Source: an uncultured Clostridia bacterium (GTDB taxonomy: Bacteria; Bacillota; Clostridia; Christensenellales; CAG-917). Taken from it: a DNA stretch of 64,000 nt. The stretch spans positions 1 through 64,000 of the forward strand of contig CALVNH010000002.1 in assembly GCA_944349635.1 (NCBI GenBank), in the 5' to 3' direction. Made by a program: the position numbers and the translations under genes. The first letter of the stretch is position 1; each line of letters begins with the position of its first letter. Of this stretch, positions 1 through 24,968 are shown one piece after another. The notes below the pieces were generated by a model, which had not been told where the DNA came from, searched no databases, and saw only the letters and a list, made by a program, of their open reading frames with translations.

Positions 1-1998
1 AAGCTTATCAAAGACGGTCTTGTGACGCACGTTGCCATGCCTGCCATTGCATATTACGACGAACACGCGAAGAAATGGATTTACGGAGACTGCGTGGAAG
101 CCGGCGAAGAAAAGTCTTTCGTAAACGTTGTGAAAATCAAAAATCTGCTTTCGCTTGTGGAGCAGGTGAATCCGTCCTTTTTTACGTTTAAAAACGTTGC
201 GGAACAGAAGGCGGCCGCAGCTGCGGTTTTCGAAAAAAACGTGGCGTATTACGGCAAAGGCCACGAATTCCCAAAGTTCTTTTTCCCTCTCAGAAGGAAG
301 TTTTCGCGAGATTTTGCCTCCATGGTAAAAAACGACCTCACGTTTCGTGCACCCGACTATACACCGCGCGACGTGTGCCGCGGCTTTTTCGAGTATATAG
401 CCGCGGTTGTGGAAGTGCAGGTCGGAAAACTTTCCAAGGAAAGAGGACTGAAATTCTCGTCCAAGAAAATTTCTCTCGTTTATCCGGCAAAGGCCGGCAA
501 ACTGTACGTCAGCGAATACACTTCGCTTGTCGAAAAGGCTTTCGAACTGAAAGTGCACAAGTCGCTGAACTCCACAAAGGCGCTCAGTATGTATGCCTAT
601 CACCGCGGTATGCTGGGCGAAGGAGAGAGTCTGCTTGCTTTCGATATGGGTGAAGAGGATATTTCCGTGGCAAAAGCGGTTTTGCTTCCGCCCGAAGGTC
701 CTTTCGACGACGCTAAACTTGTGGTCGAGGGTGCGGACGGACACAGCGCGCCCTGCGACATAGGCGGCAACGACATCGACAGTGCCATTGCAAAGTATAT
801 CGAACAGTGTATTTACAATCGCGAAACCGTGGGCACTCCGTCGCACGGCAACGAAGGACACATCTACGAATCCGGACTGGAATCCAAGCAGTATCTTTTC
901 ATGAAGGACATCAAAAAAGCCAAAATGATACTGAGTATGCCCGATTACGGTGACGGAGTCTTCGCAAGCGGCGCACCCGTTTCCCTTTGCAGGGATTTGT
1001 ACATTCAGCGGAAAATCACCAAAGACGAATTTCGCCGTTGCGCGGGTATCGCTGACGACAACGGCGTTGCGAGACAGATTGTCGATTACATAGAAGAGGA
1101 GTTGTCGCTTGCCGTCAACCGCGACGTCACGAAAGTGTTCCTTTCCGGCGGACTTGTGGAAACGTTGGACCTCGTGGATTATATCAAGAAATCCGTAAAG
1201 AAAAATCACGTAAACATATCCTTCTACACGTTTGACGACAACGTCATGGACGGCGACGATTTCGCCGTGCTCACTTACGAAGATTCCACCTATGCGCCGG
1301 CAATCGGCGGTGCGATAGTTTCCGCTATGGATTACGACGTGCGCACGGCAATCGCGCTTTCTTACGCCACGTGGATGGGATTGAATCTCAACGACGCCGC
1401 AAACACACGAGTGTTGTTCCTGGACATTTTCGTCGACAGAGGTACAATACTGCCGAAAGGAAACAGCATTTTCACTACGGGCGGCGTGGTGCGCGGAAGC
1501 GCGGCTTCTCCCATATCGCAGATTACGGGCGAAGAAATTTATTCCGCGACGGTAACGCGTGCGGACATTTCCGCGCAGCGTAACAAAGCTCAGCTGAAAG
1601 ATTTTTATCTCACCACGAAGAAGGACAACTATCTGCTCATAGGAAAGAGCGGTTCCAAGGAGAGAAAGCGGCTCGCGAAAATTATCGGAATGAAAACGGT
1701 TTCGGGCGGGGAAAACGCAAAAATCGTCTTTATGCACGGGGACAGACGAGTGCAGATTCTCGGCGATTTCGATTTTGTCGAAGGCGTAATCATAGACCCG
1801 GACGGCCGTGCAAACCCGTATATCGCAAGCGCCGCGGCACAGGTTGACGCTAAGGATACCCAGGTTTACATCAAGTATCTGGTTCCTGCGGGAAAGGATT
1901 CTTTCACCCCCGTGGGGAATGTAACAAAAGTGCCCGCAAGGGAAATAAGACCCGTGTTTGAGGGGCTCAGCGTTTTTGACGCGGAGACCGACAACTGA
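1..1998 (+). CDS. Hsp70/actin-fold ATPase-like protein (5' partial)
   Basis: The frame is open at base 1. The nucleotide-binding fold is visible from its second half: LLAFDMGEED (phosphate-2 type, near visible codon 211), CDIGGNDID (near codon 253, like the Hsp70 GGxDFD segment) and VFLSGGL (near codon 379, like the adenosine motif). A segment VDRGTILPKGN near codon 478 resembles the start of an Hsp70 substrate-binding domain. The N-terminal phosphate-1 loop is not visible, so the true start lies upstream, and the GTG at base 22 is only an internal codon. Hsp70-fold proteins use ATP to switch substrate binding; the client here is unknown. The gene is followed after 14 bases by the SNF2 helicase and is the first visible member of the accessory operon. 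The family call is fairly firm, the function is not. Confidence 0.7.
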   Translation, partial: KLIKDGLVTHVAMPAIAYYDEHAKKWIYGDCVEAGEEKSFVNVVKIKNLLSLVEQVNPSFFTFKNVAEQKAAAAAVFEKNVAYYGKGHEFPKFFFPLRRKFSRDFASMVKNDLTFRAPDYTPRDVCRGFFEYIAAVVEVQVGKLSKERGLKFSSKKISLVYPAKAGKLYVSEYTSLVEKAFELKVHKSLNSTKALSMYAYHRGMLGEGESLLAFDMGEEDISVAKAVLLPPEGPFDDAKLVVEGADGHSAPCDIGGNDIDSAIAKYIEQCIYNRETVGTPSHGNEGHIYESGLESKQYLFMKDIKKAKMILSMPDYGDGVFASGAPVSLCRDLYIQRKITKDEFRRCAGIADDNGVARQIVDYIEEELSLAVNRDVTKVFLSGGLVETLDLVDYIKKSVKKNHVNISFYTFDDNVMDGDDFAVLTYEDSTYAPAIGGAIVSAMDYDVRTAIALSYATWMGLNLNDAANTRVLFLDIFVDRGTILPKGNSIFTTGGVVRGSAASPISQITGEEIYSATVTRADISAQRNKAQLKDFYLTTKKDNYLLIGKSGSKERKRLAKIIGMKTVSGGENAKIVFMHGDRRVQILGDFDFVEGVIIDPDGRANPYIASAAAQVDAKDTQVYIKYLVPAGKDSFTPVGNVTKVPAREIRPVFEGLSVFDAETDN

Positions 1999-2012
1999 CA
2001 GGAGGTGACGCT

Positions 2013-4832
2013 ATGAATTCCGACAAGGGGAAGAGCGCCTCGAACAAGAAGTTTCACATAGAATTCGACTCGAAAGCCTTTGATAAAGAGATTCAGAGGT
2101 CCAAGTTGTCCGCAAGTGTGGAGACTTACGACAAACGTATCGCGGAGATGAACCGCATGGTCGAAGCGCTTGACCGTTACGACGACTTTGCCGCACTGAA
2201 ACTGGATAGTTCGAAATACGAAAAGGATTCCGACGCCGATTCGTACGGGATAAAGGAAGTTTTTGCCATTCATCACGGCGGCGGAGTCATTCTCAGACAC
2301 CAGAAAGAAGCGGCTCTCGCATTCATCAAAGAGCTGCGCGGGTTCGGTCTGCTCGCCGACGTTGTCGGCAGCGGCAAGACGTTCGAGGCGGGCGTTGTGC
2401 TCAGCGAACTCGCCGTGCGCGGCAAAGTGAAATCTCTGCTCATCGTTGTGCCCGAGCAAGTCTATCCCAGCTGGGTGGATGTCATGGAAATGAAATTCGG
2501 ACTGGGCAAGGGAGTTCTTCGTCATGTGGGAAAGGACTTCGATTTGACTGCCGACGAATTGGAGAGCGCGGGAGGAGAACGTCAGTTCAGTCGTCCCGTG
2601 CGTCCGCTCATCGTCACGATGGAGGATTTCGCCGAGTGGCCTGAATCCGTCGCGAAACTGCTTTTCGACGTCATCGTGGTGGACGAGGCGCACAATCTGT
2701 GCGTGGAAGAAGGTCAATATGCGAAAGCCATGAAACTGCTTTCGCTTATGATGGTGACGAAAAAACAGGCAAATATGACGTATTGTCTGCTGTTGTCGGC
2801 CACGCCTCACTCGGGTAACCTTGAAAAGATGTTCCGCCTTTGGTATTTCGTACGTTGCAAAGGCGGAAATCCGTCGGATTTCAACGAAATCGACGATTCC
2901 AGGCGTTCGGCGGACTACCGCAAGGAAAAAGCCTACTATATGACGCACGTTTGCAGGGGGGCGTCCACGGTAATGGAGTTCATCAAGAAAGTGAAAATTT
3001 TCGAAGTGGTGAACAACTATGCCGCGCAGTTTGGAGAGTATCTGAAAAAGACTGGCGACGCGGAAGCTTTTTCTTCCATGACCGAGGGCGAAAAGTTCTA
3101 TGTCGTGTGCGGCTTCCTCTCTCAAAACCCCTCTGTGGAAGACAAAGTTAACTCCAAGGTTGCGGCGGCATATCACAACGGCGTCCTGCGTTCGATAATG
3201 ATTAGACAGCCCAACGCCGCGGTCGGCAAGAAAAAGAAAGTGGAAAACGTTTTCTTCTTCCCGACGCGCAAAAAAATCGGCGAAGTCAAAGTCACGGGTG
3301 CGGACGGAGCGGAAGTCACGGTGGACTGCGCGGCGGCGCCCGACGGCAAGTGCGTTGTCAGAAAGACAAAGGCACTTACATTGAAAGAGTATCTTGACGA
3401 GACCCGCGGAGAAAGAGGATTCACGTCCGCCTATGCGGAATTCCTCGTCAGCAAGGTTCTCGGCACAATAGGTTTCGACGACGAAATCTTTACCAAAAAG
3501 GATTCTTTGAAATATTACTGGCAACAGTTCGCCTGCTTCGCTCCGGAAATCAGGACGGAAATCCGCGTCATTCCGTGCGGCGAGGAAGAAATGTTTGCCG
3601 CAAAGCTTGCAAAGACGAAAGAGATTCTGCGCGCCCACGTAAACGAACGCATTCTGGTCTTTTTCGATTACGAACTGAAAAAAGAAAAGATTCAGTTCGA
3701 CCGTTTCGAACAGGCGTTGTCGGCAGACCCTGAGTTTGCTTCGCGCGTCATTACGGGCACAAAACAGAACAAAGGCAAAGCGGACAAAGAGTTCGGCGAG
3801 AAGAGCGACGCAATCCTCATTGTCAAGGATTCGGCATTCACGGAAGGCGTAAATTTGCAGGAAAGCAACATCATTATCAACTTCCAAATCACGCCAGACC
3901 CGCTTGCGATGGACCAGAGAATAGGACGAATTTTCCGTCTGGGACAGAAAAACGACGTCACGATTTATTTGCTTGCGGATATGAGTGCGCTTGAAGGCTA
4001 CGTTCTGGCATATTTTTCCAGGATAGGACTTATGTCCAGCAACAGCGGCGACGCCACCATCATTGCCGGAAGCAACAACGAGAGAATGGTTGCCGTCAGG
4101 TGCAAGGTGTGCAAGAGTGTCAAGCTGTATTCGCAGGAAGATTACGAGGCCAAGAAACGCACGGGCGGGCTGTATTGCCGCAATACGGAACTCTGTCGGA
4201 AGGACGACCCGAAAGGCACTCTCATGGAGGAAATCAGCGTCTACGATTTCAAGTGCGACACTTGTACGGCCGTGTTCTCCCGTTCCGTCGCCGACGAAGG
4301 TTACACCTGCATGTCCGTCAACAACAGCAGAAACGGCATTATGTGCAACAGCGGCGAGTACGGCGACAGACACATGTATTGCCGCAAGATTTGCGCGTTG
4401 GACCATTGCTCGCGGTTCCTCGAAGGCGACATGAAAGGGAAGTGCGCGGCTTTGACGTACTATCGCAAGAACAGAAACGCCACCGACAGCGACCTCATGC
4501 TAATCTGCCTCAAATGCAAGAATCGCAGGAAATGTCCTCCAGAGTGTCGCATCGACAGCGGCGAACACGCCATTGCCGCCTGTACAGGTTGTGAGTTTGC
4601 GGAATGCTCTCCGAAACCGCAATCCTTCGTCTTTGACGAAAAGTGGGAAATCAGATGTCCCGTTTGTCACAAGGGGCGCATCAAGCCCGTGGTAGCGAGA
4701 ACTTTTGCGGCATATATACGCGCGGCGTGGGATTTCGCACACGACAACGGAGCCGGATTCTGTCGCAATCTCGAAGCGGAAGCCCGCAAGGTTTCGGAAA
4801 TCAAGACCATTCTCGATATGGATAATAACTGA
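2013..4832 (+). CDS. SNF2-family (RapA/HepA-like) helicase with C-terminal zinc clusters
   Basis: 939 residues with all main SF2/SNF2 motifs: Walker A ADVVGSGKT (near residue 119), DEAH box VIVVDEAHN (near 221), motif III LLLSATPHSG, and motif VI DQRIGRIFRLGQ (near 633). The ADxVGxGKT and QRIGRxxRxGQ forms are those of the RapA/HepA subfamily, which translocates on double-stranded DNA and remodels protein-DNA complexes. From about residue 693 to the end there are at least six CxxC pairs, suggesting several zinc ribbons not found in RapA itself. An AGGAGG site precedes the ATG. DISARM and related defence systems also use this helicase subfamily, but no methylase or DrmA/B partner is visible here. 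Confidence 0.85.
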   Translation: MNSDKGKSASNKKFHIEFDSKAFDKEIQRSKLSASVETYDKRIAEMNRMVEALDRYDDFAALKLDSSKYEKDSDADSYGIKEVFAIHHGGGVILRHQKEAALAFIKELRGFGLLADVVGSGKTFEAGVVLSELAVRGKVKSLLIVVPEQVYPSWVDVMEMKFGLGKGVLRHVGKDFDLTADELESAGGERQFSRPVRPLIVTMEDFAEWPESVAKLLFDVIVVDEAHNLCVEEGQYAKAMKLLSLMMVTKKQANMTYCLLLSATPHSGNLEKMFRLWYFVRCKGGNPSDFNEIDDSRRSADYRKEKAYYMTHVCRGASTVMEFIKKVKIFEVVNNYAAQFGEYLKKTGDAEAFSSMTEGEKFYVVCGFLSQNPSVEDKVNSKVAAAYHNGVLRSIMIRQPNAAVGKKKKVENVFFFPTRKKIGEVKVTGADGAEVTVDCAAAPDGKCVVRKTKALTLKEYLDETRGERGFTSAYAEFLVSKVLGTIGFDDEIFTKKDSLKYYWQQFACFAPEIRTEIRVIPCGEEEMFAAKLAKTKEILRAHVNERILVFFDYELKKEKIQFDRFEQALSADPEFASRVITGTKQNKGKADKEFGEKSDAILIVKDSAFTEGVNLQESNIIINFQITPDPLAMDQRIGRIFRLGQKNDVTIYLLADMSALEGYVLAYFSRIGLMSSNSGDATIIAGSNNERMVAVRCKVCKSVKLYSQEDYEAKKRTGGLYCRNTELCRKDDPKGTLMEEISVYDFKCDTCTAVFSRSVADEGYTCMSVNNSRNGIMCNSGEYGDRHMYCRKICALDHCSRFLEGDMKGKCAALTYYRKNRNATDSDLMLICLKCKNRRKCPPECRIDSGEHAIAACTGCEFAECSPKPQSFVFDEKWEIRCPVCHKGRIKPVVARTFAAYIRAAWDFAHDNGAGFCRNLEAEARKVSEIKTILDMDNN

Positions 4833-4841
4833 GAGGTAGTT

Positions 4842-6497
4842 ATGGGTGCTAACGTATACTACATCGGTAAAAAATACGAGGACGCCTTCAAAAGCATCTG
4901 CGCTTTGGTGAAAGAAAACTGTGTTCCCGGTGAAATCGTCACTTCGGCGAACGGCAGAGAAATTGTCACACACGCTTACCGTTTCGTCTACGACGACGCG
5001 GCGCTGGGATTTGACGACGAGTGCGCTGCGGGAATGTCGGAAGAGGGGGCGAGCTGGTTTGCGCCTCTTCGCGGAGCAAGCAAGGACAACGGCACCGCCG
5101 TATGGCTCAACCTGGTCGAAAACGTCGCGGCAAGTTATCACTCGCGCTATTCTCTGGTTGAATTCAGCAGGGAAACGCGAATCGTCACTCCCACGGAGCG
5201 CGAGCGTTACAAACTTATGGTGTCCAACGTCCTCGGACGCTTTGGGCTGCCTTATTCGGAAATAGTGCAAGGAAGTCTCGAAGACTCGACGGAAGATATT
5301 TACGGCGTTTCGCTCCGCATTGAACTCAACGGCGGAACGGGGCAGTCTCTTCCCGTGCTCTGCAAGATTTATTTCCGCAAGAAAAAGGAATTTTTCGTGC
5401 CGCTTTACAGCGAGGAAGCCACACAGATTGACGATTATCTGTTCAGCGCCGTGGAAGAAAAGTCAGACAACGTTCCGCACAACGTGGCGCAACAGACCGC
5501 GTCGGCAATCATAGACAAGGTGATGAACGCGCTGGACAGACTCATTTCCGGCGAAATGCGCGATTACGATTTCACTTCATGCATGGCTTTCAGCAATCCC
5601 GCCGACGCCGAGACCGTGGCACAGATGGTCGCAAAAGGTCCTCACGACGACGTCACTCTGGAATGCAGGTCGGTGAAAGTGCTCGGAATTTCCCGCGCGA
5701 AGTGGACAAACGTCGTCTTTGACGTAACATTGAACGGACGCAGGATTTTGCGCTCCACGATTGGCATAAACGACGCGTTCAGTCTTGTTTGTCTCAACTG
5801 CAACAGCGGCAACCTCATCGCAAACAATCTGGTGAAATGCACCGAAACGCACGAGGGAACGGGCGACGTGAGCGAAGTGTTCTATCGCATAGACCCTTCT
5901 CTCGAAGACCTCGGAATCAGCGACGCAACGCTTGAAACCATAGCGGAGCAGAGTGAACTGTCGCGACATCTCATGCCGATTAGCTGCGAAATTCCGTCCA
6001 GGACGAATATTCCCTGTTCGCGAAGAGTGTGTCCCTCGCAGACGGAGAATTTCGAAACGGCAAACGGGGAAGTGGTCAGAGTGTGCAAAAACTGTCCTTA
6101 CCCCGAAATGGTGTTTACCAAAGAGGACGGCACGAGAACGCTGACGAGAAACCTCTCCTTTGCACGCGACCTTATGACGATGACGGAAAAGGCGGACGTC
6201 AAGACGTGTTCCTGTTGCGGAAGAAAGTTCTCCGTGCTGGAAGAGGACGGAAAATGCAAGTTCTGTCACGCCGCAGTCGATATGTTTGCGGACAGAACGG
6301 CGGCGAAAAAGAATTACAAACGCTTTGCGACGATGTTGCCTCTCGGTACGAGGTTGTCGCACCTGGCGGCGAAGAAGTATTGCTTCGAGGAGGAGGACGT
6401 GCTCTTGTTCGTTCTCGGAACGGACAAATACGTTTTCGACAAACTCGGCGCAACGCGTTACGGCTATCTTGCCGCACCCCGCAAGACGGGCAGATAA
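4842..6497 (+). CDS. Cysteine-rich putative zinc-binding protein, unknown function
   Basis: 551 residues that I do not recognise as a named family. The N-terminal 300 residues look like a mixed alpha/beta domain without clear catalytic motifs. The C-terminal half carries paired cysteines: CLNC (near residue 316), CSRRVC (near 389), CKNC (near 413), CSCC (near 454) and CKFC (near 471), consistent with two or three zinc sites. It starts 9 bases after the helicase stop with an SD-like GAGAGGTAG, so the two are probably translated together. The shared zinc-cluster character with its neighbours at 2013 and 10807 suggests one complex acting on nucleic acid or protein; that is inference. Confidence 0.6.
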   Translation: MGANVYYIGKKYEDAFKSICALVKENCVPGEIVTSANGREIVTHAYRFVYDDAALGFDDECAAGMSEEGASWFAPLRGASKDNGTAVWLNLVENVAASYHSRYSLVEFSRETRIVTPTERERYKLMVSNVLGRFGLPYSEIVQGSLEDSTEDIYGVSLRIELNGGTGQSLPVLCKIYFRKKKEFFVPLYSEEATQIDDYLFSAVEEKSDNVPHNVAQQTASAIIDKVMNALDRLISGEMRDYDFTSCMAFSNPADAETVAQMVAKGPHDDVTLECRSVKVLGISRAKWTNVVFDVTLNGRRILRSTIGINDAFSLVCLNCNSGNLIANNLVKCTETHEGTGDVSEVFYRIDPSLEDLGISDATLETIAEQSELSRHLMPISCEIPSRTNIPCSRRVCPSQTENFETANGEVVRVCKNCPYPEMVFTKEDGTRTLTRNLSFARDLMTMTEKADVKTCSCCGRKFSVLEEDGKCKFCHAAVDMFADRTAAKKNYKRFATMLPLGTRLSHLAAKKYCFEEEDVLLFVLGTDKYVFDKLGATRYGYLAAPRKTGR

Positions 6498-6509
6498 CGG
6501 GAGGTTCGT

Positions 6510-9500
6510 ATGGCTGATTATTCTAACGACGCTTCGGTCATAACCGCAAGAAAGATAAGAAGTTCCAAGTGGTTTATGTTCGCCTCCGTGTTGATAGCCG
6601 CGGCGGTGGATTTGTTCGCACTCACAATTCTGGCAAAGGACGGTGCAGGTGCGGAGTTTTTGACCCCCGTGTGTCTGATGTTCGTTCTCGACGCGCTTTT
6701 TGCGGTGCTCATTCTGTTTTCCAGTTACCGCTTCAGATATTCGCGCAAACAGTGGATTATATACGTGTTTCTGACTGCGTTGCTTACTTGCGTGACCATG
6801 TTGGTTGTGTTCGTGCTTTCCGAATTCAGCGTTATGACGGTGGTTGCGGCTGTGGCATGGTGCGCAGTTCACCTCGCGGTGTGCGTCGTAACTGTTTTCA
6901 CCGCGCTTTATGCCTCGGGAAACAAAAAGGTGTCCAAGCTTCTGGGAATGGTTGCCGCCGTGGCGTTCATGCTCATTTTCGCCATAGCATACACGGGATA
7001 TACGGCAACTGCCGGTTATTTCGGGCAGGGTGAAAACGGAGAAATCCGCGCGGTGACTTACGCTTACGACGATGTGAGCGAAACTTATACCGCAACCGGC
7101 GTTCTGGACGGCAGAGGCGGCACGGTCATTATCCCCGAAACGTTCAACGGCAAAAAAGTTTCCGCCGTCGATGCCGCGCTCTTTGCCCTCGACGACATAT
7201 CCAAAATCAGTATTCCGGGAGAGTACGCCCCCGAAATAGTCAACACAGAAAAGCTTGCCTACGCTTCCGAATCGCTTGTGCTGGAAATCAGCGTCGAAAA
7301 CATCGATTCCTACCGCAAACTGTTCTACGAATGCGCGGTGAACGGCGGCAGTATAGGAGCGGTGTCGCTGGCAAATTCCGCAATTCCCTGCGGACTGGAA
7401 GAAAACGAAGTTTACGTCACGTTCGCTTACGATGCGGATTCCTATCTCAAAGCGGGACGCAAAATCATTCCCACATGGACGGGAGAGAAAGGTGAAATCT
7501 TCCGCATATCCTTTGCCTCTTCGGAGTGTTCTTACACGGCGTTCTGCGACGTGAACGACATCGAGGATTTGCACAGCGCGTACATCTACAACAACAAGTA
7601 CATAATGAACCCCGTAGCAGCCGGGAACGGTAGCGCGCTTGACGGCAGCGTCTTGAACGGCAACGTCAAAGGCGCGGAAGTGTCTTTCAGCAAAGTATAC
7701 CGTGTCAGCCTCGGAGAGGACAACGACCTGCTTTACGAGGACGACACCGATTTTGCCACTTTCACGTTGAACGGAAACGAATACGATTACACCTATGTCG
7801 TGGCTTCCACGGCAAACGCGCTTCTCGCTTCTTTCCGCAACAGAGACGGCTTCGGGCTTTCCTGGAAATATTCTTCGTCTACGGGGTCTTCGGTTTACAA
7901 TCTGAGCGATTTCGGCTATCTGCTGTCGAGTTCGACGTCGGAAAGAACTCTCGACGCGATAAAGATTTATCCCGAGTGGAAACTGAATTCTCCCGTCATA
8001 TCCTCCGTGTCCACGGAACATGCCGCAAATATGTTGATATACGGCGAGAGCATGACCCTCACAAGCACCGTTACCGCGCCTACGGACGGTTTATATCTCA
8101 CATATCAGTGGAAAAACCCCGAAAACGGCGAAATCGGCACCGACCGCGAAGTTACCCTGAGCAATATGTTGCCGTCGCAGAGCGGGCAATACGTGCTCAC
8201 GGTGACGGCGGCCTCGGACACGTTGACGTCTTTGACGTCCGTTGCCGAAAGAGGAGTCAACGTGACCGTCAACAAGCGCGAACTGGGATTTGTCTGGAAC
8301 GTCCCGGAGGAGAGCGAACTTGTGTATAAGGGCGCCGATTTCACGGTGTCCGCAGATTATGTGGAGGAGGACGTAATCAATTCCGATTCCATAACCTATC
8401 TTACGAACGGGAACACATTCCGCAATGCGGGGCAGTATACGGTGAACGTCTCCTTGCAGGGTGACGCCGCCGACAAATACATAATTGCGCAAGGACAGTC
8501 ATCCGTTACGCTCACCGTGAAAAAGTATGTCATTTCCGCTCCCGTGTGGGGAGTGACCGTGACATTCGTCTATGACGGCGAGTCGCACGCTCCCGCCGCC
8601 TCCGTCAACGGAGTGGGCGACGACGGCGAACTTGCACTCACCGTGGCGGGAGCCAAAACTTCCGTGGGAACTTATACCGCAACAGCCGTGCTTGCCGACG
8701 AGGACGCGCGCAACTACGAGTTCGAAAACGCCACGACGCAGTTTACCGTTCAGCCCAGACCCGCAACGCTGGTGTGGAACGACGTTTCGTATATGTATAA
8801 CGGCGGCGTCCAGCACCCGAGTGCGCTTTCGGCGGAAAACGTCATCGAAAAGGACTATGCCGCATTCATGCATTCCGTCATGTACATGCCTGTCACGGAT
8901 TGTGTAAACGCAGGCGAGCATACTGTCGGAGCGGAAATTGCGGGTACGTCAAATTACGTCTTCGAATCGCCGCAGACAAAGCAGTTCGTCATTATAAAAC
9001 GCACCGTGGGGGTGACGTCGTGGTCCTGGACTTCCGCGGAGTACGACGGCACGGCACAAAGACCGCAGATAAATACGGTCAGCAACGTTATTCCCGGCGA
9101 GGAAGAGTCCTTTATGCAGTCGATAACATATTCCGACGGAGAGATTTCCGTGGGCACGTATACTGTCAGGGCAACTCTTCCCGAAGTTTTCAACTACTCG
9201 TTCAACGGCAATCCGACGGTTTTTGCATCGTACAGCATAACCAAGCGTACGCTGACGCTTTCGGTCGCAAACGCATCGAAGACCTATGACGGAACGCCTT
9301 TCGAAGATTTCCGCATCGTCTGGAACGGTCTTGCGGACACGGACGTTCTCGACGAAGTGGTCACCGTAACTTTCGGCGGAAGCGCACTTACAGCGGTCAA
9401 TGCCGGCAAATACGAGTTCGAGTTCTCCTATGCAGAGGGGGCGAAAGCGGGCAATTACGACATCGACGTAGCGTCGCGACAAGCGGAGCTGACAATAGCA

Positions 9501-10805: not shown

Positions 10806-10806
10806 C

Positions 10807-13400: not shown

Positions 13401-13435
13401 GTCGGGAAGTATAAAGAAAAGGGAGTGTTGTCCGA

Positions 13436-15403: not shown

Positions 15404-15416
15404 GGGGAGAAAGAGT

Positions 15417-18400
15417 ATGTATCTCGATGATTACGTCATCGATTTGTTGCACATAAACGAGGGTACAAGCAACAAGCTTATCGACATCGACGCCGGCAGC
15501 CGTATGCAGACGTATCTGCTGTCGCACGAGGGTTGTTCGGCACTGGCGGAGTATGCCGTTTCCGTGATTGTCGCAAGGACGGGAAAGACGGCAAATACCG
15601 TGCTTCGCGGAAGTGCCCCCAACGCTTCGCGCGAGCAGGTGATAGGGCGGAGCCTCAATACCTTCGACTGGACAAACGCTTTGGGCGAGCGCGACCCAAA
15701 ACAATTGGACTCTTTTATCGACAACGTTTACAAAAAACTCAATTTCAAAGGCAACAATCCTTTGTTTTTGAGCGTAGGAGCCCTCAAATGGCGAATAGCG
15801 GTTTCGCAGAACGAAATCAAAGACGTGGTTTCGCCTCTGCTTATATTCCCCATCCGTCTGGTGCGTTCGAGTTCGGTAAGTCCCGTTTCGGTGGAATTCG
15901 TGGACGACGACGCATACTTCAACCCTTGCCTTTATTACCGTTTGGTGCAGGATTTGGGGGAAGAGTTCGCAAAGGCGTTTCCTCATCCTAACGGCAGAGA
16001 TGCGAATTTCGATTTTCCTCTCGACCTGAAAGTATTCAAAGAGGACAACGGAGCGGAGTATTTTGCGCAGGTGGCGCGGTTTGTGCGAGAGGCAAAGTCA
16101 GCTGCCTCCGCAGACACCCTTTTCGAATTCGACAAGGACATCGTCGCTTTTACTACATACGACCACGACGAAGTGTGTATGTATTACGACATAAAGCGCA
16201 ACGAAAACAAAATCGAAAAGCACCCTTTGGTCGAGCGTGTTTTCAAAGAGGGAACGCGTGAGCCCGCAAAGCCTTTCGGAAACAAGTGGCCCAGCCTTAT
16301 TCTTCCTGCCGACAGCGTGCAGGAGGAAATCATACGGAGGGTAGTCGAGGGTGAATCGATGATAATAAAAGGGCCTCCGGGAACGGGAAAGACTCTGACA
16401 ATCGCCAATATGATAGGTGCATTGCTCGGCGAAGGCAAACGCGTTATGCTTGCATCGAGAAAACTGTCCGCGTTGTCGGAAGTCAACGCGAAACTCCCTC
16501 CGAAACTCCGCAAGTTCGTGATGTTGATGGATTACGAAACGGAAGAGCAGGCGGCGAAAGTCAACCCCGACAACATAAAGCGTGAGCTCAAGGCTTTGCT
16601 TACCGAAAGGAAGAAACACACCCTCGGTTCCGGAGTGACGGACGATTTGCGCTCCGGAGAAACCGAAAAGGCGGAGGCATGGAACTTCCTCGGCAACTAT
16701 GCGGAGTTCATGTTCGGCAAAAAGGGCGTTGTGGGCGGCAGCTATTATGACGCGCTCAACACATATTTTGCCGACAGCACTCTTCCCGCCGTGGAGTTCG
16801 ACGACAAAGAGAAAGCGGTCAAGGTTTCCCCGGAGGAGTATTCCGCCCTCAAACGCAATGTTGAAGCCGCAGGAAAACACTTCCTTTCGCTCACCGCGAA
16901 CGGCGCGCACGGCTTTTATAAGAATCCTTGGTACGGCGTGGGATTCGCCGTCGATGCGGAGAAGGCGTATTCTCTCAACAAAGCCATTGCCGCACGGGCG
17001 GACAGACTGTTGAAGACGTTTGACGGAAAGCTTGCCGAAAACGGCGGCGCGAACCTTGACGGTGTGAGTATGCCGTCCGTGCGCTGGATGTTGAGAGGTG
17101 GCGGTACGTCGCCCGAATGCGAGGGTATCATTTCCGCCGCAAAGGATGACGACGCAAGAATCGCACCTCGGAAAAAGGTTCTGAAAAAGGCAGTTGCGGC
17201 ATATTTCGAAGCGGCAGACAAAGTGCGTTACGATTTGACGTTCAAATCCGTGGACGAGCTTTTCGCATTGCAGGAAAAACTTCTTGCCGCCGACCTTGAC
17301 AAAGAGGACGGTTTTGCCGAGTTGGAGCGCATTGCCGCAAATTCCGACGTTTTCAAGGGACCGGGCGGAGAATTCCTCAAACAGACCGAAATAGACAAAT
17401 TGCTCGCCCTGGTCGACGCCATCGACGACACCGACGAAAAAATCGCAGCCCGTCGTTTCGAAATTTTCAAGGTTTTTTCCGCAGACGCAGTGCAGAAGAA
17501 TGCAAAACGGCTTTCGGACGCAACCCGCGCCTTAGAAGCGTATTTCGGAGCACAGGCGGTCAAGCCCAGATTTTTCGATTTCGCCGCGAAATCCGCCTTT
17601 AAGAAATTGGCTCCGCAAAGCTACCTCAAAGGAGTGACGTTCGCTCAGACGGTGGACGCCGTGTACAATTTTGCGGAAGCCGCAAAACTTGCCGACGAGA
17701 GAGAGGCGCAACTGAATCTGATATATGTTTTCTTCCAAAAGGAAGTTGACGCCGACAAAATAGAGTGTTTATCCTCTGTTTTGAAAAAATGCCGCGATAA
17801 AGGACTCGACACGAAGCGTTATGTTTCAAATGCGGTTGCGGCAAAGGACACGCTTGCGGATTGCAGACGGGCGCTTGCTTCCGCGCCGGAAGATTATACC
17901 GTCGGCGACTATCTTGCTTCACTTGACGCCGCTCTCAAATCGGACACTCTCTGCAATGCGTTGAAGGGATTCAACGCGGTGTGTCACGTCGCGGACGGAA
18001 TCGATTCAACCTCGGCGCCGCGCATCGCAGCTGCGGTGTCCGCTCTTTGGGAAATCGCAGCCGTAGGAGACCTCAAATACAAACCTGCACGGGAAGTCGC
18101 GGAGTTTGTCGCTGCCATGTGCGACGAAAGCTGTGCGGCACTCATAGACGAAATGGCGACAGAGGAAAGGAAGTTTGCCGAGGAGTGTTTTGCCAATTAT
18201 TACTCCGCGTTTCCGAATTTGCTTTCTCTCGGTGACTGGCGCATATTCGCTGCCGAGGCCGACGACAGAAGCGTGCTTGCGGCGATGCTGGGTTACAACA
18301 AGATTCTGTATTCGACTGACAACGTGCTGAATCTTTCCGCGTTTTTCCGTCCTTATGAGCAGAGTAAGATTTCGCCCGTACAGGCTCCTTTCGGTGACAC

Positions 18401-19973
18401 GTTCGAGCATTCCTTCTATGCGCTTGTGGCGGCTGCCGTTTCCGACAGGATGGGAACTTTGAGAAACGGAATGGGCGACAGAGTGGCGTCCAATCTGAAC
18501 AAATACAGCGCGGCGGAAGCCACAATCCGTAAGGCAAACGTCGCTCTCATCGAGGACAGATGCATGCAACGCATCGACCCCGACGACGCCGATTTCGGGT
18601 TCCTGACCGCAGAGAGGGAATCCAACCTGACTTTGCGCAAACTCTTCAAGAAGGCGCCGGCGGGCATCATGAAACTAAAACGGTGCATAATTCTTTCGCC
18701 GTCCACGGCAAGTGTGCTTTTCCGTCCCGAAGAGTACGAAAATTTCGACGTGGTCATCATCGACGAGGCAAGCCAGCTGAAACCCGTGAGCATGATTCCC
18801 GTTCTGTTCCGCGCCAAACAGTGCGTTATAGTCGGCGACGAATGGCAGATGCCAAATATAGAGCATTTCAAAGTGAAAAAAGCAGTTGCCGGCGACGAAA
18901 CCGAGGCAATAGAAAACTCAGCTCTCACCGTTGCTTTGAAGAACAACCGCTTTGACGTCGAGGAACTGATTTGCCATTACAGAAGCAAGACGGAATCACT
19001 CATCGCGTTCTCACAAAAGAAGTTCTATCCCAAGATGAAGACTTTTCCGTCTCCCGTACCCATAAAGGAGGGGCTGGGGTTCAGGGACATATACGTCGAG
19101 AATGCTTCGACAAAAGACGGCGTCAACATAACCGAAGCATCCGTAGTGCACAAGTGTCTGAAAGAACACTTCGACAAATATTACGACGACGAGACAGGCG
19201 TGCTTTCGCAGTCGGTCGGAGTGGTCGCATTCGGAGAGAGCCAGATAAAGTGTATTCTGAGTCTTGTGGAACACGATTCGGAGTTGAAAGGCAAAATCGA
19301 CCGTGCACGCGCTGTTTTCGGCGACGTGCCCGAAAAACTCCTGTTCTTCAAGACCATCGAAACCGTGCAGGGGCAGGAGACGGCACATCTGATTTTGTCG
19401 TTGACTTACGGCAAAGACGCTTACGGCGATACGAAACAGTCGTTCGGGCAGCTTAACAACAAAGAGTTGGGACAGTGCATCTTCAACGTCGCGGTCACCA
19501 GAGCGCAATCTTCGGTCACCGTGGTGCATTCGGTGCATGCCTATGAAATCGTCAACGACAACATTTCATTCATAAGAGATTATCTGTCCGTGGCGGAGAA
19601 GTTCGGCAAGAGCGGAAAAGGCCAGTTCGTCTCCGCAGACCCCGGGAAAGGTTTTCTTGCCGACGTTGCGAAATTCGTGGTTTCGACGGGCATATCTTCC
19701 GACAGGGTCGTGCTGAATTACGGAGTCACGGACGGCTCGGTGCGTATTCCCGTGGCGATACTGTCCGAGGACAAATCTTGCGCGCTTATGGGAATTTGGT
19801 GTGAAATTCCCACCGAAAAGCAGTATAATTATCTCGATTACAACATAAGACACTTCGAAAGTCTAGAAGTCTGCGGCTGGAAATTGTTCCGTCTTTACAT
19901 ACAGGACTGGTACGACAACCGCGAAAGCGCCGAGGACAAAATCCGAAACGAATTGAAAAAATACGTCAAATAA
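15417..19973 (+). CDS. Very large SF1 (Upf1-like) helicase
   Basis: 1518 residues. Walker A GPPGTGKT lies near residue 318, Walker B IIDEASQ near 1114, motif III VGDEWQMP near 1140, and motif VI NVAVTRAQ near 1357. The order and the DEAS/GDxxQ forms are those of Upf1/DNA2-type superfamily 1 helicases. About 800 residues between Walker A and B form a long, largely helical insertion, much longer than in a minimal helicase. A C-terminal segment (after about 1400) may be a restriction-like or restriction-remnant fold, but no catalytic PD-(D/E)xK is clear. The ATG at 15417 is chosen for its GGGGGAG site. With the SNF2 protein it gives the operon two different nucleic-acid motors. Confidence 0.8.
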   Translation: MYLDDYVIDLLHINEGTSNKLIDIDAGSRMQTYLLSHEGCSALAEYAVSVIVARTGKTANTVLRGSAPNASREQVIGRSLNTFDWTNALGERDPKQLDSFIDNVYKKLNFKGNNPLFLSVGALKWRIAVSQNEIKDVVSPLLIFPIRLVRSSSVSPVSVEFVDDDAYFNPCLYYRLVQDLGEEFAKAFPHPNGRDANFDFPLDLKVFKEDNGAEYFAQVARFVREAKSAASADTLFEFDKDIVAFTTYDHDEVCMYYDIKRNENKIEKHPLVERVFKEGTREPAKPFGNKWPSLILPADSVQEEIIRRVVEGESMIIKGPPGTGKTLTIANMIGALLGEGKRVMLASRKLSALSEVNAKLPPKLRKFVMLMDYETEEQAAKVNPDNIKRELKALLTERKKHTLGSGVTDDLRSGETEKAEAWNFLGNYAEFMFGKKGVVGGSYYDALNTYFADSTLPAVEFDDKEKAVKVSPEEYSALKRNVEAAGKHFLSLTANGAHGFYKNPWYGVGFAVDAEKAYSLNKAIAARADRLLKTFDGKLAENGGANLDGVSMPSVRWMLRGGGTSPECEGIISAAKDDDARIAPRKKVLKKAVAAYFEAADKVRYDLTFKSVDELFALQEKLLAADLDKEDGFAELERIAANSDVFKGPGGEFLKQTEIDKLLALVDAIDDTDEKIAARRFEIFKVFSADAVQKNAKRLSDATRALEAYFGAQAVKPRFFDFAAKSAFKKLAPQSYLKGVTFAQTVDAVYNFAEAAKLADEREAQLNLIYVFFQKEVDADKIECLSSVLKKCRDKGLDTKRYVSNAVAAKDTLADCRRALASAPEDYTVGDYLASLDAALKSDTLCNALKGFNAVCHVADGIDSTSAPRIAAAVSALWEIAAVGDLKYKPAREVAEFVAAMCDESCAALIDEMATEERKFAEECFANYYSAFPNLLSLGDWRIFAAEADDRSVLAAMLGYNKILYSTDNVLNLSAFFRPYEQSKISPVQAPFGDTFEHSFYALVAAAVSDRMGTLRNGMGDRVASNLNKYSAAEATIRKANVALIEDRCMQRIDPDDADFGFLTAERESNLTLRKLFKKAPAGIMKLKRCIILSPSTASVLFRPEEYENFDVVIIDEASQLKPVSMIPVLFRAKQCVIVGDEWQMPNIEHFKVKKAVAGDETEAIENSALTVALKNNRFDVEELICHYRSKTESLIAFSQKKFYPKMKTFPSPVPIKEGLGFRDIYVENASTKDGVNITEASVVHKCLKEHFDKYYDDETGVLSQSVGVVAFGESQIKCILSLVEHDSELKGKIDRARAVFGDVPEKLLFFKTIETVQGQETAHLILSLTYGKDAYGDTKQSFGQLNNKELGQCIFNVAVTRAQSSVTVVHSVHAYEIVNDNISFIRDYLSVAEKFGKSGKGQFVSADPGKGFLADVAKFVVSTGISSDRVVLNYGVTDGSVRIPVAILSEDKSCALMGIWCEIPTEKQYNYLDYNIRHFESLEVCGWKLFRLYIQDWYDNRESAEDKIRNELKKYVK

Positions 19974-19987
19974 AAGGAGCGACGATT

Positions 19988-20743
19988 ATGGCAGACAACA
20001 AACAGAAACAAAACCGCGACCCGCTGAGCGCTATCGACGCCGCCGTCAACGAAAAAATGAATCAATGGCAGCAGCAGCGGCAGCTTGAGGAACTCAAAGA
20101 GAGGAGCGCGGCGCTCGACGCGAAAATCGAGGAACTCGCCGAAAAAACGGCCGATTTTACGCTGGAATACGGTGCCGACGATTTCCGCGCGCAGATGATG
20201 ATGGCATATCTCGAAGTGGCAATCGAGATGAAAGAGGCGGTCAAAATGATTCAGGGCGCAAACGACGCCATAGCCTTCATTTACGAAGCCGTGGATTTCA
20301 TCGACGAATCCATGAACTTCAATTCCACGCTTCAGAAGCAGTCGCTTAAATCAAAATACGGGTTGTTTTCGCGCATCAAAAACCGCATTCTCAACAGGAG
20401 AGTGGCGAGAAACAACATCAACCGCGTCAATCAGATGATGGACAAACTGGTTGCGCAACGCAACATCGCGCAGAATGTGATGGATTCTTTGCGCAGAGCG
20501 TGCGCCAGAATGACGAAAGCCATTGAGAAGAGCAATATCAAGCGCCAGAAAAAGCTTGACAAAGAGGCTCAGAAGCAGGGCAAGCCCCTCGCGCTTTCCA
20601 AACAGAGCACGGCGGAAAAGCTGGTTGCCGCCATCATTGCTTCAAAGAGCGGAGCGGAAAGCGCCGCCGTGACGGAGGGAAGCGCTCCTGCCGCCGCGGG
20701 TGCCGCGCCTTCCGACGTTTCGGACATCAGCGATATCACCTGA
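19988..20743 (+). CDS. Helical protein preceding the AAA ATPase, unknown family
   Basis: 251 residues, predicted helical throughout. The N-terminal 60 residues are Gln/Glu-rich and likely coiled coil. A central region is rich in Met and Ala (residues 60-100). A basic segment with many Arg and Lys (about 120-195) follows, and the C-terminal tail is Ala/Ser/Asp-rich and probably disordered. It lies directly before the VPS4-like AAA ATPase. In ESCRT systems small helical, charge-segregated proteins are the substrates of such an ATPase, so a substrate relationship is an attractive but untested inference. No signal peptide or transmembrane segment is seen. Confidence 0.55.
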   Translation: MADNKQKQNRDPLSAIDAAVNEKMNQWQQQRQLEELKERSAALDAKIEELAEKTADFTLEYGADDFRAQMMMAYLEVAIEMKEAVKMIQGANDAIAFIYEAVDFIDESMNFNSTLQKQSLKSKYGLFSRIKNRILNRRVARNNINRVNQMMDKLVAQRNIAQNVMDSLRRACARMTKAIEKSNIKRQKKLDKEAQKQGKPLALSKQSTAEKLVAAIIASKSGAESAAVTEGSAPAAAGAAPSDVSDISDIT

Positions 20744-20777
20744 CTTTATAACGGGTTTTCTTTAACAGGAGGAGAAA

Positions 20778-21968
20778 ATGGCAGGCATAGGTAAAAATGC
20801 GGGGAAGCCCAATTCCGCCGCACCCGCGGGGAAAGCCGATACCATAGAGAGTCTGGAAAAGAACTTTTCGGTTGTTGTCGGCGAGATACGCGGCATACTG
20901 AACGGCCGCAAGGATAAAAATGATTTGCGCGACGAGGAGCGCAGAACACTGCGTGCAAAATATTCGCAAGCCGCGCAGATTGCCCGCACGCTCTCGCAGA
21001 GGTGCACCGACACCGACAAGCGGGATATGTACAAGAGCCATTTCGAGAAACTCAGCGACGCCGCCGCGAGTTACGGTTCGGTCATCAACAGCAAGGTGCC
21101 GTCCACCACTTTCGACGACGTCAAAGGACTCGACAACGTCAAGAAACTGGTAAAAAGTTTCCTGTTCATGGCGCAGAATCCCGAAATCGTCAAGTATTAC
21201 AAGTTGGAAGGCGGGCTGGGAATGCTGATGTACGGAGCACCCGGTACGGGCAAGACGATGTTTGCGGAAGCCATCGCAAACGCAATGAATCTGCCTTTGT
21301 TCATCGTGACTCCCGCAGACATATACAAGTCCTATGTCGGAGAATCGGAACAAGCCGTAAAGCAGATTTTTCAGGAGTTGGAGTCCTGTCCCGACGGTGC
21401 CATATTGTTCGTCGACGAATGCGAATCCATTTTCAGCCGCAGAACGCAGGATACGAAGGATTACAAGGCCGCCGTCACGACGGAGCTTCTGCAACGCATA
21501 AACGGGTTCGGCGGCGACGGCTCAAAACGCATAATGATTGCCGCCACCAACCGTCCCGACGTAATAGACCCCGCATATCTCCGTTACAAACGATTTTCGC
21601 ATCTCGTTCACGTTACGCCCCCCGACTATGCCGCAAAAAAAGCCATAATCGAAAGCAAACTCAAGGGCATAGCGCTTGACGGAGTGACCACGGACGACGT
21701 TCTGGAGATGAGCGAAAGAAAGAAAATCACGGACGGACCCCTCGGCAAAGTCGCAGTCACGGACGCCTATTATTCTGCCGCGGATTTGTGCGGAATAATC
21801 GAAGAGGCGTGCAGGCTTGCCCTGGAAAAATTACAGGAAAAGGGTTCGTCGGAGCCGATTCCGCTCACACGCGAAATGTTTGAAGCGGCGTTTGCCAAAA
21901 TTCCTCCCGGAATTTCCGCACAGGTGCTTAGGGAGTACGAAAATTTCAGGAAAGATTCTGATTCGTAA
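20778..21968 (+). CDS. AAA ATPase of the VPS4/katanin/spastin type with MIT-like N-terminus
   Basis: 396 residues. Walker A GAPGTGKT is near residue 152, Walker B ILFVDECES near 208, and the second region of homology AATNRPDVIDPAYLR near 254, with Arg residues positioned as arginine fingers. The domain entry (TTFDDVKGLDNVKK) is typical of the meiotic AAA clade (VPS4, katanin, spastin). Residues about 15-90 form a helical segment with a length and charge pattern like an MIT three-helix bundle. A C-terminal helical extension follows. A GGAGGAG site precedes the ATG. Members of the clade thread or disassemble polymers. A stand-alone copy in a bacterial operon of this kind is uncommon. Confidence 0.8.
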   Translation: MAGIGKNAGKPNSAAPAGKADTIESLEKNFSVVVGEIRGILNGRKDKNDLRDEERRTLRAKYSQAAQIARTLSQRCTDTDKRDMYKSHFEKLSDAAASYGSVINSKVPSTTFDDVKGLDNVKKLVKSFLFMAQNPEIVKYYKLEGGLGMLMYGAPGTGKTMFAEAIANAMNLPLFIVTPADIYKSYVGESEQAVKQIFQELESCPDGAILFVDECESIFSRRTQDTKDYKAAVTTELLQRINGFGGDGSKRIMIAATNRPDVIDPAYLRYKRFSHLVHVTPPDYAAKKAIIESKLKGIALDGVTTDDVLEMSERKKITDGPLGKVAVTDAYYSAADLCGIIEEACRLALEKLQEKGSSEPIPLTREMFEAAFAKIPPGISAQVLREYENFRKDSDS

Positions 21969-21979
21969 AGGGGTTTGGT

Positions 21980-23152
21980 ATGACTCTGAAGCAAAAAAAC
22001 ATTCTTCGCGGGATATGCATGACTCTGTTGTGCATCGGAGCGGTATATTTTCTGTTCATCGTTGCCTCGTTTATTTCCGTTCTTTGCGCGATGTCCGACG
22101 AGACGGCTTACTGGACACAGTGGCAAAAGGAGCATATAGCGGCGCTTGAATCCTCCTACGCTTCGGGCGAAGCCCCTAAGGTGGACGAAAGCGTGTTTTG
22201 CGGTTTCGATTTGGAGCAGGCGACCGCAGACGGAGTCAGCCTGGCGGACTTGCGCTTTCTTGCCACGCACAACAGCTATAAGCAGGGCACTACCAAACAG
22301 ACCGACATTTTCTACAATTACGCCTTGCCCGTAATGCTCGGCAAGAAGTACGATTACGTTTTCGACACTCTCACGGAGCAGTTCAACCACGGAATACGCA
22401 GCATCGAAATCGACCTCGGCAAGGTTGAGAGCGACGACGGATTTTCCGTCAACGTCTATCACAACGCTCTCACCGAGACGGGCAGTTCCATGATTGATTT
22501 CGAGCTCGGCTTGCACGAGATGAAGATGTGGTCGGATTACAATCCCGGACATCTTCCCGTAACCGTGCTCGTGGAGCTCAAAGGCGGCTCTTTCGGCAAG
22601 TACGCGGATTTTGACGAGGAAGCCATGCTGTACGTCGACGAAACATTGCGGGAAGTTTTCGGAGAAAGTCTTTATACGCCCGCGGAAGCTCTGGAAGGAC
22701 ATTCCTCTTTCGCGGAACTCAGAGAGAGCGGTGACCTGCCGACTCTTGAAGAAACGAGAGGCAAATTCATCTTCCTTTTGCACGAAACCTCGGTGACGGA
22801 CACTTATGTCGGAATCGACCCCGAAATGCGCTCTCAGGCGATGTTTCTCGCACTCACCGTCAAGCGCGAAAAATACCGTTCTCCCGAATGGTTGGACAAC
22901 GCGCTTTACGTCATCATCAACAATGCCGCCGAAAAGAGCTACGGAAAAATGATTGAAGATGCGCTTTCGGAAAACTTTATTGTCAGAACGCGCCTCGACG
23001 AATTTGCCTTAATAAGCGACAAGCGTTTCGACGCGGCGATGAAGAGCGGAGCGCAGATTCTCAGCACGGACTATCCTCCCGCCACGGAGGACAGATACGG
23101 ATATACCGCCGATATAGGCGGAGGAAAAACAGTTCTCCTGCGCACTCGCTGA
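21980..23152 (+). CDS. Membrane-anchored PI-PLC-like phosphodiesterase
   Basis: 390 residues. One N-terminal hydrophobic helix (about residues 12-36) is followed by a soluble domain. The signature ATHNSYK (near residue 97) carries the first catalytic His of the phosphatidylinositol-specific phospholipase C fold. The strand RSIEIDLG follows near 139, and VYHN near 155 carries the second His. LVELKGG resembles the following strand. The arrangement resembles the Ca2+-dependent bacterial PI-PLC-like subgroup. The topology predicts an extracellular catalytic domain. It is the last gene of the operon, 11 bases after the AAA ATPase. Substrate specificity is not deducible. Confidence 0.7.
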   Translation: MTLKQKNILRGICMTLLCIGAVYFLFIVASFISVLCAMSDETAYWTQWQKEHIAALESSYASGEAPKVDESVFCGFDLEQATADGVSLADLRFLATHNSYKQGTTKQTDIFYNYALPVMLGKKYDYVFDTLTEQFNHGIRSIEIDLGKVESDDGFSVNVYHNALTETGSSMIDFELGLHEMKMWSDYNPGHLPVTVLVELKGGSFGKYADFDEEAMLYVDETLREVFGESLYTPAEALEGHSSFAELRESGDLPTLEETRGKFIFLLHETSVTDTYVGIDPEMRSQAMFLALTVKREKYRSPEWLDNALYVIINNAAEKSYGKMIEDALSENFIVRTRLDEFALISDKRFDAAMKSGAQILSTDYPPATEDRYGYTADIGGGKTVLLRTR

Positions 23153-23476
23153 TACGTCTCACGGGGAGCAGCCGCGCCGACCTTGCCGTCAGCCGTGTCT
23201 GCAATCCGCGAAGAAGGAAAACAGCGTCGGAATTCACGAGAAGGAGACGCTCGGCATTGAGTTTCGGATTGCTTCGGAACAGGCGGAATTTCGGTATGCC
23301 TGTAGTTTCCTGCGAAAGTAACGCCCCCGGGATAAATGCTCGCGAAAACTCAAAAAACAGATAAGTAAAAGAGCGGTTGCCCGCTCTTTTCTTTCGTACT
23401 TTTGCGGCAGAGCCGCTTTTGCTTTGGTTGCTGTGCGGCAAAACTGCCGCATTTATCCGATGCCGTAAGGCTGTGA
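23153..23476. other. Intergenic region between convergent genes
   Basis: 324 bases with no convincing gene. The only structure is the perfect hairpin at 23367-23390 and two further GC-rich inverted repeats, GCGGC/GCCGC at 23404-23416 and TGCGGCA/TGCCGCA at 23434-23451. The first 200 bases show no recognisable feature. Confidence 0.6.
23367..23394. terminator. Bidirectional intrinsic terminator between the accessory operon and the DUF1508 gene
   Basis: A perfect 10-bp stem AAAAGAGCGG / CCGCTCTTTT has a 4-base loop and T-rich flanks on both strands. It can end the 23-kb plus-strand operon and the minus-strand gene at 23477. Confidence 0.8.
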
Positions 23477-24715: not shown

Positions 24716-24742
24716 TATTCATCCTCCGAAAGATAAATCAAT

Positions 24743-24774
24743 ATTATATTAGCACGCGCAGAGAAAATAATCAA
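24743..24774 (-). promoter_or_regulatory. Predicted promoter of the DUF1508 gene
   Basis: On the minus strand TTGATT (24774-24769) and TAATAT (24751-24746) are separated by 17 bases, with an overlapping TATAAT at 24748-24743. Transcription would start about 20-25 bases before the ATG at 24715. Confidence 0.5.
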
Positions 24775-24933
24775 CATATAGCGTTTTATATTATTATGTT
24801 TTTTGCACGTCGCGACGTGACGAGGAATTAACGTTCTCCGTAATAACTCGAAAAAGCAAAATGTCGACGTCGTCAAAACGAAAAGACAGGCGGCAAAGAG
24901 CTTTCGAAAGAGGAATCAATCTGCTTTCAAAAA

Positions 24934-24962: not shown

Positions 24963-24968
24963 GTTGTC

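Follow-up and report, generated by a model that had tools for sequence, protein, structure and literature searches.

A ten-gene operon of uncultured Clostridia, transferred between families and joining Hsp70-like, helicase, metallopeptidase and AAA motor genes: a candidate conflict machine

Several described defence systems contain parts that recur in the locus treated here. BREX has BrxC, PglX and PglZ as its core, PDC-S37 and Hhe are single-gene systems, and the IetS protease of IetAS is subtilisin-like. The CoCoNuT systems are described as combining a UPF1-like helicase, which carries a PD-(D/E)xK domain of Vsr-like type and a long insertion following Walker A, with a stand-alone Hsp70-like protein whose nucleotide motifs are degenerate and a stand-alone coiled-coil protein (PMC11090510). 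The current work concerns an operon at the start of a 64,000-nucleotide stretch of DNA (hereafter the window) from an uncultured Clostridia bacterium (GCA_944349635.1, contig CALVNH010000002.1). The window is the first 64 kb of this contig (C2) in a genome of 1.35 Mb and 17 contigs. Other genomes, contigs and loci are cited below by G, C and L labels.

The operon is a unit of ten genes, g1 to g10 (Table 1). In the window, eleven open frames (g1-g11) lie head to tail on the + strand over positions 1-23152, with spacings, from g1 to g11, of 14, 9, 12, 1, -4, 35, -8 or 13, 14, 34 and 11 bases, depending on the start codon. A profile search of g1-g10 in the operon loci of 38 genomes recovered one order, g1-g2-g3-g4-g5-g6-(g7-g8)-g9-g10. 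Counted once per genome, and with six duplicate loci from a species-wide scan left out, 244 of 259 junctions between neighbouring genes measured 50 bases or less. The numbers of genomes showing each junction were 36 for g1-g2, 36 for g2-g3, 34 for g3-g4, 31 for g4-g5, 26 for g5-g6, 18 for g6-g7, 20 for g7-g8, 18 for g8-g9 and 25 for g9-g10; no junction is visible in all 38 because many loci stop at contig ends. The recurrence of the g1-g2 and g2-g3 junctions in 36 genomes each argues that the gene set is more than chance, and g9 adjoins g10 in all 25 genomes where g9 was found. The gene set thus stays together in distant genomes, a check that the earlier note on this DNA had proposed.

The eleventh gene, encoding a PI-PLC, is a host flank gene. 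It gave no match at 1e-5 among the operon loci searched, and in the relative G006 the genes for PLC, DUF1508, pcrA and ligA are adjacent without the operon, with 2.1 kb visible upstream of PLC. G006 has no match to g1 or g3 anywhere in its genome, and its full-length LigA is the closest to that of the window (80%). For these two reasons, absence from operon loci and presence in operon-less G006, the PI-PLC was rejected as an operon part and the unit was taken as g1-g10. At the other end, the contig breaks off within g1, whose start is found on contig C14 (L003:182 or 191, - strand). The end of C14 (3459 bases) and the start of the window have exactly 77 identical bases in common; the nearest gene upstream of g1 on C14 is about 380 bases off. 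The earlier description of an eleven-gene operon on one strand was therefore right about the tandem frames, short gaps and strand, but the PI-PLC falls outside and g1 is incomplete in the window. The proposal that the products act together also stands in part: g1-g10 evolve and move as a unit, without the PI-PLC, which had been assigned to an envelope part.

A pattern scan of positions 1-20000 found 28 terminator-like sites against 29.2 expected by chance, so that it cannot judge the presence or absence of internal terminators there. The scan gave 15 sites on 20000-25000, where 8.5 were expected, and a GC-rich hairpin with a short T-run follows g11 (23404-23416, + strand). The DUF1508 gene of the window (23477-24715, - strand) has a variable N-terminal part, since its C-terminal part alone aligns (80-83%) in several congeneric genomes.

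Table 1. Positions in the window of the ten operon genes and of the adjoining host gene.
Gene	Position	Strand	Description
g1	1..1998	+	Hsp70-like; 5' end on contig C14
g2	2013..4832	+	RapA-like SNF2 helicase, cysteine-rich (zinc-finger-like) C-terminal region
g3	4842..6497	+	Zinc-ribbon protein, no assigned family; marker gene
g4	6510..10805	+	Membrane protein, five N-terminal hydrophobic segments, MBG/Ig-like domains
g5	10807..11928	+	N-terminal zinc ribbon plus Sel1-like repeats
g6	11925..13400	+	Fast-evolving, helix-rich (by eye)
g7	13436..15403	+	Zincin-type metallopeptidase
g8	15417..19973	+	UPF1-like SF1 helicase (DUF4011) plus degenerate MTES_1575 domain; TTG start 15396 possible
g9	19988..20743	+	Small helix-rich protein (by eye)
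g10	20778..21968	+	Single-domain Cdc48/Vps4-like AAA ATPase, slowest-evolving member
PI-PLC (g11)	21980-23152	+	Starts 11 bases after g10 end; host gene

The operon comes naturally in two subtypes, with and without g7-g8, a contrast that could reveal which part is the effector. The 20 genomes that have g7 are also the 20 that have g8. In seven genomes (G069, G142, G196, G267, G277, G330 and G334) g6 stands directly before g9, and G352 has no recognisable g7-g8. The g2 tree takes in six genomes without the pair; because five such genomes and G334 form one clade (98/99), a small number of losses, or of gains elsewhere, may account for the distribution of g7-g8. Other loci vary as well. The order is permuted in G334, with g6-g9-g10 ahead of g1-g2-g3-g4; g1-g5 are followed by other genes in G013 and G248; and unscored frames occupy the places of g6 and g9 in G260. 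Extra frames were found in G039 (two g7), G073 (two g10-like) and G267 (two g9-like), and g1 is split over two frames in G064. At 1e-60, g10 was detected in 14 of 18 whole genomes and was missing from G004, G013, G021 and G065.

The distribution is patchy. Of 60 relatives, counting the window's own genome, seven carry g1; within the window's genus the figure is 4 of 10, so the block is present in some close relatives and absent from others, which was also among the points raised earlier. The marker g3 was found in 30 of 396 genomes of the order, in seven family codes and 13 of 142 genera. It occurred in 2 of 391 genomes of the class draw, both from the window's family, and in 1 of 398 of the phylum draw, the window's own genome; no operon was seen in other orders within the class and phylum samples. 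g7 was present in 13 of 297 genomes of the order, and as all 13 are among the 30 with g3, no g7 without the operon was seen. A species-wide scan (one genome each, 84,980 species) gave 20 loci; it was based on two peptide patterns and therefore misses divergent copies. The operon-bearing relatives are metagenome-assembled Clostridia, mostly animal-gut by label, and include one genome labelled Bacilli, whose LigA is 41% identical to that of the window. In a search for virus-borne copies with g2, three generic SNF2 matches of 25-30% were obtained. Among plasmids, g3 had no match and all g8 matches were below 60% identity (25-28% among the 25 matches listed).

The operon was transferred between families. 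In a concatenated tree of six proteins from 16 genomes, G039 groups with Borkfalkia-type copies and G013 with G067 and G068; the LigA tree, by contrast, places G039 in a group with genus g78 (100/99), and there G013 joins the window's genus (88/99). An approximately unbiased (AU) test on the concatenated tree rejected the two LigA groupings, with p values of 7.9e-5 and 1.9e-4. The insertion sites are several. In the window the operon lies beside PLC-pcrA-ligA, and in G142, G196, G330 and G069 beside rpsF-ssb-rpsR; further sites are carB (G039), pgk (G303), recR (G170), rpsB-tsf (L026) and uvrA (L027), all flank names except those of the window being read by eye from translations.

Most of the operon diverges rapidly. 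Within the window's genus, g1 and g2 are 39-52% identical between copies, against 75-79% for LigA, and the window's g2 shares more identity with Borkfalkia-type copies (60-62%) than with those of its own genus (50-51%). Mean between-family identities (16 genomes; 12 for g7 and g8) were 67.8% for g10, 52.3% for LigA, 49.1% for g2, 40.6% for g1, 40.5% for g8, 32.6% for g3, 32.5% for g7, 29.6% for g5, 29.1% for g4, 25.5% for g9 and 19.7% for g6. All parts except the AAA motor g10 thus diverge faster than LigA, and g10 is the conserved engine of the operon.

The motifs of the motors and of the protease are intact. g10 matches Pfam AAA at 4.9e-32 and VCP-like structures at 2.8e-75 by profile; its NCBIfam scores, 188 bits for CDC48 and 123 bits for CdvC, fall short of the cut-offs, as does a weak Vps4_C match. 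Its Walker A and B patterns are present in all 28 copies. g2 matches Pfam Helicase_C (4e-9), SNF2 (4.4e-8) and RapA structures (1.7e-22), and its GxGK[ST] and DEAH patterns are both present in 34 of 37 copies, partial copies counted. It also has 20 invariant cysteines from residue 697 on (19 sequences). g8 matches Pfam AAA_11, AAA_12 and DUF4011 and the structures of SEN1, DNA2, SMUBP-2 and UPF1. Its motifs I and II are separated by about 790 residues, and GPPG[TS]GKT and DEAS are kept in 19 of 19 copies. In g7, HExxH is found in 20 of 20 copies and H575, E576, H579 and E631 are invariant in 16 aligned rows, with no significant family match in Pfam, NCBIfam or PADLOC.

The nuclease domain of g8 has lost an aspartate. 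The earlier note had listed the gene set as one without a nuclease, but g8 ends in an MTES_1575 (PD-(D/E)xK) match, degenerate and, at 29.8 bits, below the Pfam cut-off of 38.2. A proline (RIP, KIP, RMP, RVP or KLP) occupies the site in all 19 full-length copies (17 by pattern, two from alignment), while six of the seven paralogs compared have KID at this position and one has ISV. The replaced aspartate is presumably the catalytic residue, and an active restriction nuclease in g8 is unlikely. A host MTES_1575 protein of the window's genome (G000:C1:309721-310002, L150; a frame of 1887 aa) keeps KID, and a similar one was found in G006.

The smaller parts are less easily placed. In g3, the CxxC pairs C317/320, C415/418, C456/459 and C472/475 are invariant (18 sequences), with no significant match in Pfam, NCBIfam or PADLOC. 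In g5, C3, C6, C23 and C26 are invariant (16 sequences), and Sel1 structures match at 5.8e-6. In a Pfam scan of 12 g6 orthologs, each of the families listed (25 of 26) matched one member only, at best 6.8e-5; for 15 g9 orthologs, none of the families listed (25 of 40) was better than 0.003. Neither Snf7 nor PspA was among these listed families, and the best solved-structure match of the g10 N-terminus was a 14-3-3 protein at 0.0025, with no MIT domain. In these comparisons an ESCRT-like reading of g9 and g10 finds no support beyond the weak, below-cut-off Vps4_C and CdvC matches of g10.

By its profile, g1 is a degenerate Hsp70, with the nucleotide-binding domain of the superfamily and its motifs in order. 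This domain is colinear with DnaK over 349 columns (probability 91 local, 97 global), and in a control eight unrelated operon profiles reached at most 0.5 probability against DnaK. With an E limit of 10, eight of 18 orthologs matched Pfam HSP70, the best at 1.2e-4. Where the DnaK rows show YDLGGGTFD at the phosphate-2 loop, 28 of 36 g1 copies carry F[DN]xGE; as the loop is degenerate, ATP turnover by g1 may be weak. The domain calls made earlier from the window alone (Hsp70, RapA/SNF2, Upf1-type SF1, AAA, zincin and MBG) are all borne out by profile, structure or motif matches.

Such parts resemble a chaperone, unfoldase and protease triage, with p97, RapA and UPF1-type helicases as the nearest structures, and could form a lineage-specific stress or ribonucleoprotein quality-control complex that acts on stalled ribonucleoprotein or transcription complexes and is mobile because it is useful but dispensable. 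Housekeeping neighbourhoods fit this explanation, as does an operon fragment of G013 (g1-g5; L017:12936-17695, L018), which lies about 1.1 kb upstream of hrcA-grpE-dnaK-dnaJ (by eye). However, no CIRCE-like operator was found within 300 bases upstream of g1 in 31 loci, the best sites having 7-9 mismatches of 18; a heat-shock operon under HrcA is accordingly rejected. Patchy presence and transfer also speak against such a complex, which moreover leaves the membrane-anchored g4 unexplained, and it is regarded as unlikely.

g4 itself suggests a machine of the envelope, in which cytoplasmic motors and chaperones would assemble, quality-control or turn over this surface protein for adhesion or surface variation in the gut. 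According to a hydropathy scan only, the hydrophobic segments of g4 lie within residues 23-162, with about 1260 aa predicted outside. Of 33 copies, 26 have five N-terminal segments and the other seven have three or four, and MBG_2 is matched at 5.8e-7 (Pfam). The outside part is predicted to range from 713 to 1575 aa across 16 genomes, and the N-terminal part is not better conserved than the remainder (27.8 vs 29.4%). The N-terminal segments, the MBG domains and this size range, the frequent g3-g4 junction and the mostly housekeeping flanks agree with an envelope role. Such a role nevertheless leaves unexplained the pair of nucleic-acid helicases and the three proteins with zinc ribbons or a zinc-finger-like region, and no secretion ATPase or sortase appeared among the Pfam matches of the operon proteins. 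This role, too, has little probability.

The reading favoured here, tentatively and with somewhat less than even confidence, is that the ten genes form a horizontally mobile, membrane-anchored conflict machine, most likely directed against phages or plasmids, with a protease effector. A conflict role is preferred because of the patchiness, the between-family transfer, the fast divergence, the resemblances of g8 and g2 to defence proteins and the conflict genes at some flanks. From sequence we infer every functional step, defence included. g4 would anchor the complex in the membrane and expose its long variable region on the outside. The SNF2 helicase g2 and the two zinc-ribbon proteins, g3 and g5, may recognise, or travel along, foreign nucleic acid or nucleoprotein, and the Hsp70-like g1 and the AAA motor g10, with g6 and g9 as putative helical adaptors, would remodel or unfold the bound protein. 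Where g7 and g8 are present, the UPF1-like g8 would retain its nuclease domain solely as a binding module and may license the metalloprotease g7, which would cleave the target. With an apparently dead nuclease site and an intact zincin, the full subtype most likely works by proteolysis, and the joint occurrence of g7 and g8 makes it probable that the helicase serves the protease. A more specific form is considered rather unlikely: an immune machine at the membrane in which two nucleic-acid motors steer an Hsp70-like chaperone and a Cdc48/Vps4-like unfoldase, so that these feed invader nucleoprotein to the metalloprotease. If true, it would mean a defence acting on protein, not nucleic acid.

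Several observations weigh against a mobile conflict machine. The flanks, read by eye, hold mostly housekeeping genes and are not defence islands, and in a PADLOC comparison at 1e-20, covering 112 of 178 flank proteins, each of the families listed (25 of 35) matched one protein only. No active nuclease was seen in the operon. Transfer is established for other lineages and not for the window's own copy, because monophyly of the window's genus survives a g2-only test (p 0.444) and the concatenated tree unites its four copies (100/99); transfer into this genus thus finds no support in either analysis. In genus g78, and in g49, the site and the operon are common to several genomes, as in vertical descent. 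The g8 resemblance is weak evidence, since its scores lie far below the cut-offs and DUF4011 helicases are also ordinary host genes: operon-less G006 has a host copy, and one such helicase in Pseudomonas aeruginosa is a core gene beside a defence hotspot (PMC10250203).

Defence genes around the block had been suggested as a further check; alongside the housekeeping majority, conflict genes do stand at a few loci. Upstream of g1 on C14 lies a gene fusing TIR and S-adenosylmethionine (SAM) methyltransferase domains (L003:571-1941, - strand), weakly matching PADLOC ThsB (3.6e-4), and then an M29 peptidase gene. ThiF (E1-like) and JAB-like genes, the JAB match just below cut-off, follow g10 in G002 (L013:13583-19900); judged from these matches, the flank appears to be a ubiquitin-like conflict locus adjoining the operon. 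A possible E2-like frame precedes the JAB and ThiF genes, and a long frame resembling an FtsK/EssC ATPase (by eye) comes after them. An MmeI-type restriction-modification enzyme and an AbiH gene stand upstream of another operon copy (L029:3185-7024), and a PDDEXK_4 gene was found at the G013 flank. In the Bacilli-labelled genome, three related frames lie downstream of g10 (L043:37-3690), and the one scanned has 10 Sel1 repeats.

Comparison of the eleven proteins with Pfam, NCBIfam and PADLOC found no named system among the family matches, in agreement with the earlier note. By description, several part types of CoCoNuT Type III-B have counterparts here: the Hsp70-like g1, the g8 helicase with its post-Walker A insertion and a PD-(D/E)xK match below cut-off, a ring-forming NTPase (a predicted property of g10) and helix-rich partners (PMC11090510). 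The comparison concerns descriptions, not CnuD or CnuH sequences. A relative of these RNA-targeting restriction systems without McrBC, in which the g10 motor replaces the CnuB GTPase, could thus be proposed. Unlike Type III-B, the operon has a Cdc48/Vps4-type AAA motor and lacks the McrB GTPase (CnuB) and McrC (CnuC), the g8 aspartate is lost, and SNF2, zincin, zinc-ribbon and membrane Ig proteins are added. Neither McrB nor McrC was matched in Pfam by the eleven proteins at E up to 1 (for g10, among 25 of 26 families listed), and of 30 genomes with the operon, five have DUF2357 (four of them above cut-off), always on other contigs. As McrBC is missing, the operon is not a CoCoNuT by the defining pair, and the proposal is judged quite improbable; if trees showed kinship, the gene set would be a new variant of a known system.

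The remaining likenesses concern single parts. g8 scores 380.8 bits over residues 115-1522 against the anti-phage ProA model of NCBIfam (cut-off 1500), 264.4 bits against Hhe (cut-off 2000) and 377.4 bits against the PADLOC candidate PDC-S37 (4.5e-113 overall, in two stretches, the best at 958-1522 of g8). It differs from all three in being one of ten linked genes and in its apparently inactive nuclease. A RapA-like SNF2 core is common to g2, DrmD of DISARM, BrxHI of BREX and RapA, and the best PADLOC matches of g2 are BrxHI, DrmD and HmaA. Against DrmD, g2 reaches 119.6 bits (cut-off 610), and the only Drm names were the DrmA/DrmD models matched by g2; among BREX models only BrxHI/BrxHII were matched, again by g2, with no other core part. 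DISARM would call for DrmD at equivalog score together with further Drm proteins and a methylase. By defining parts the operon is neither DISARM nor BREX. It shares an AAA motor and a protease with IetAS, and g10 scores 105.4 bits to PADLOC IetA, a general AAA family match exceeded by CDC48; in contrast to IetAS, the protease is a zincin (HExxH), there is no IetS match, and eight further genes are present.

Judged by the family collections and an open-licence literature collection searched here, the gene set is new as a system, composed of single domains of known kinds. Gene order is kept between families of gut bacteria that share about half of their LigA residues, and g3, g6, g7 and g9 are without a usable family. 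If the operon is a defence system, it would couple a chaperone, an unfoldase and a protease to helicases at the membrane, a combination that, to our knowledge, no named system contains.

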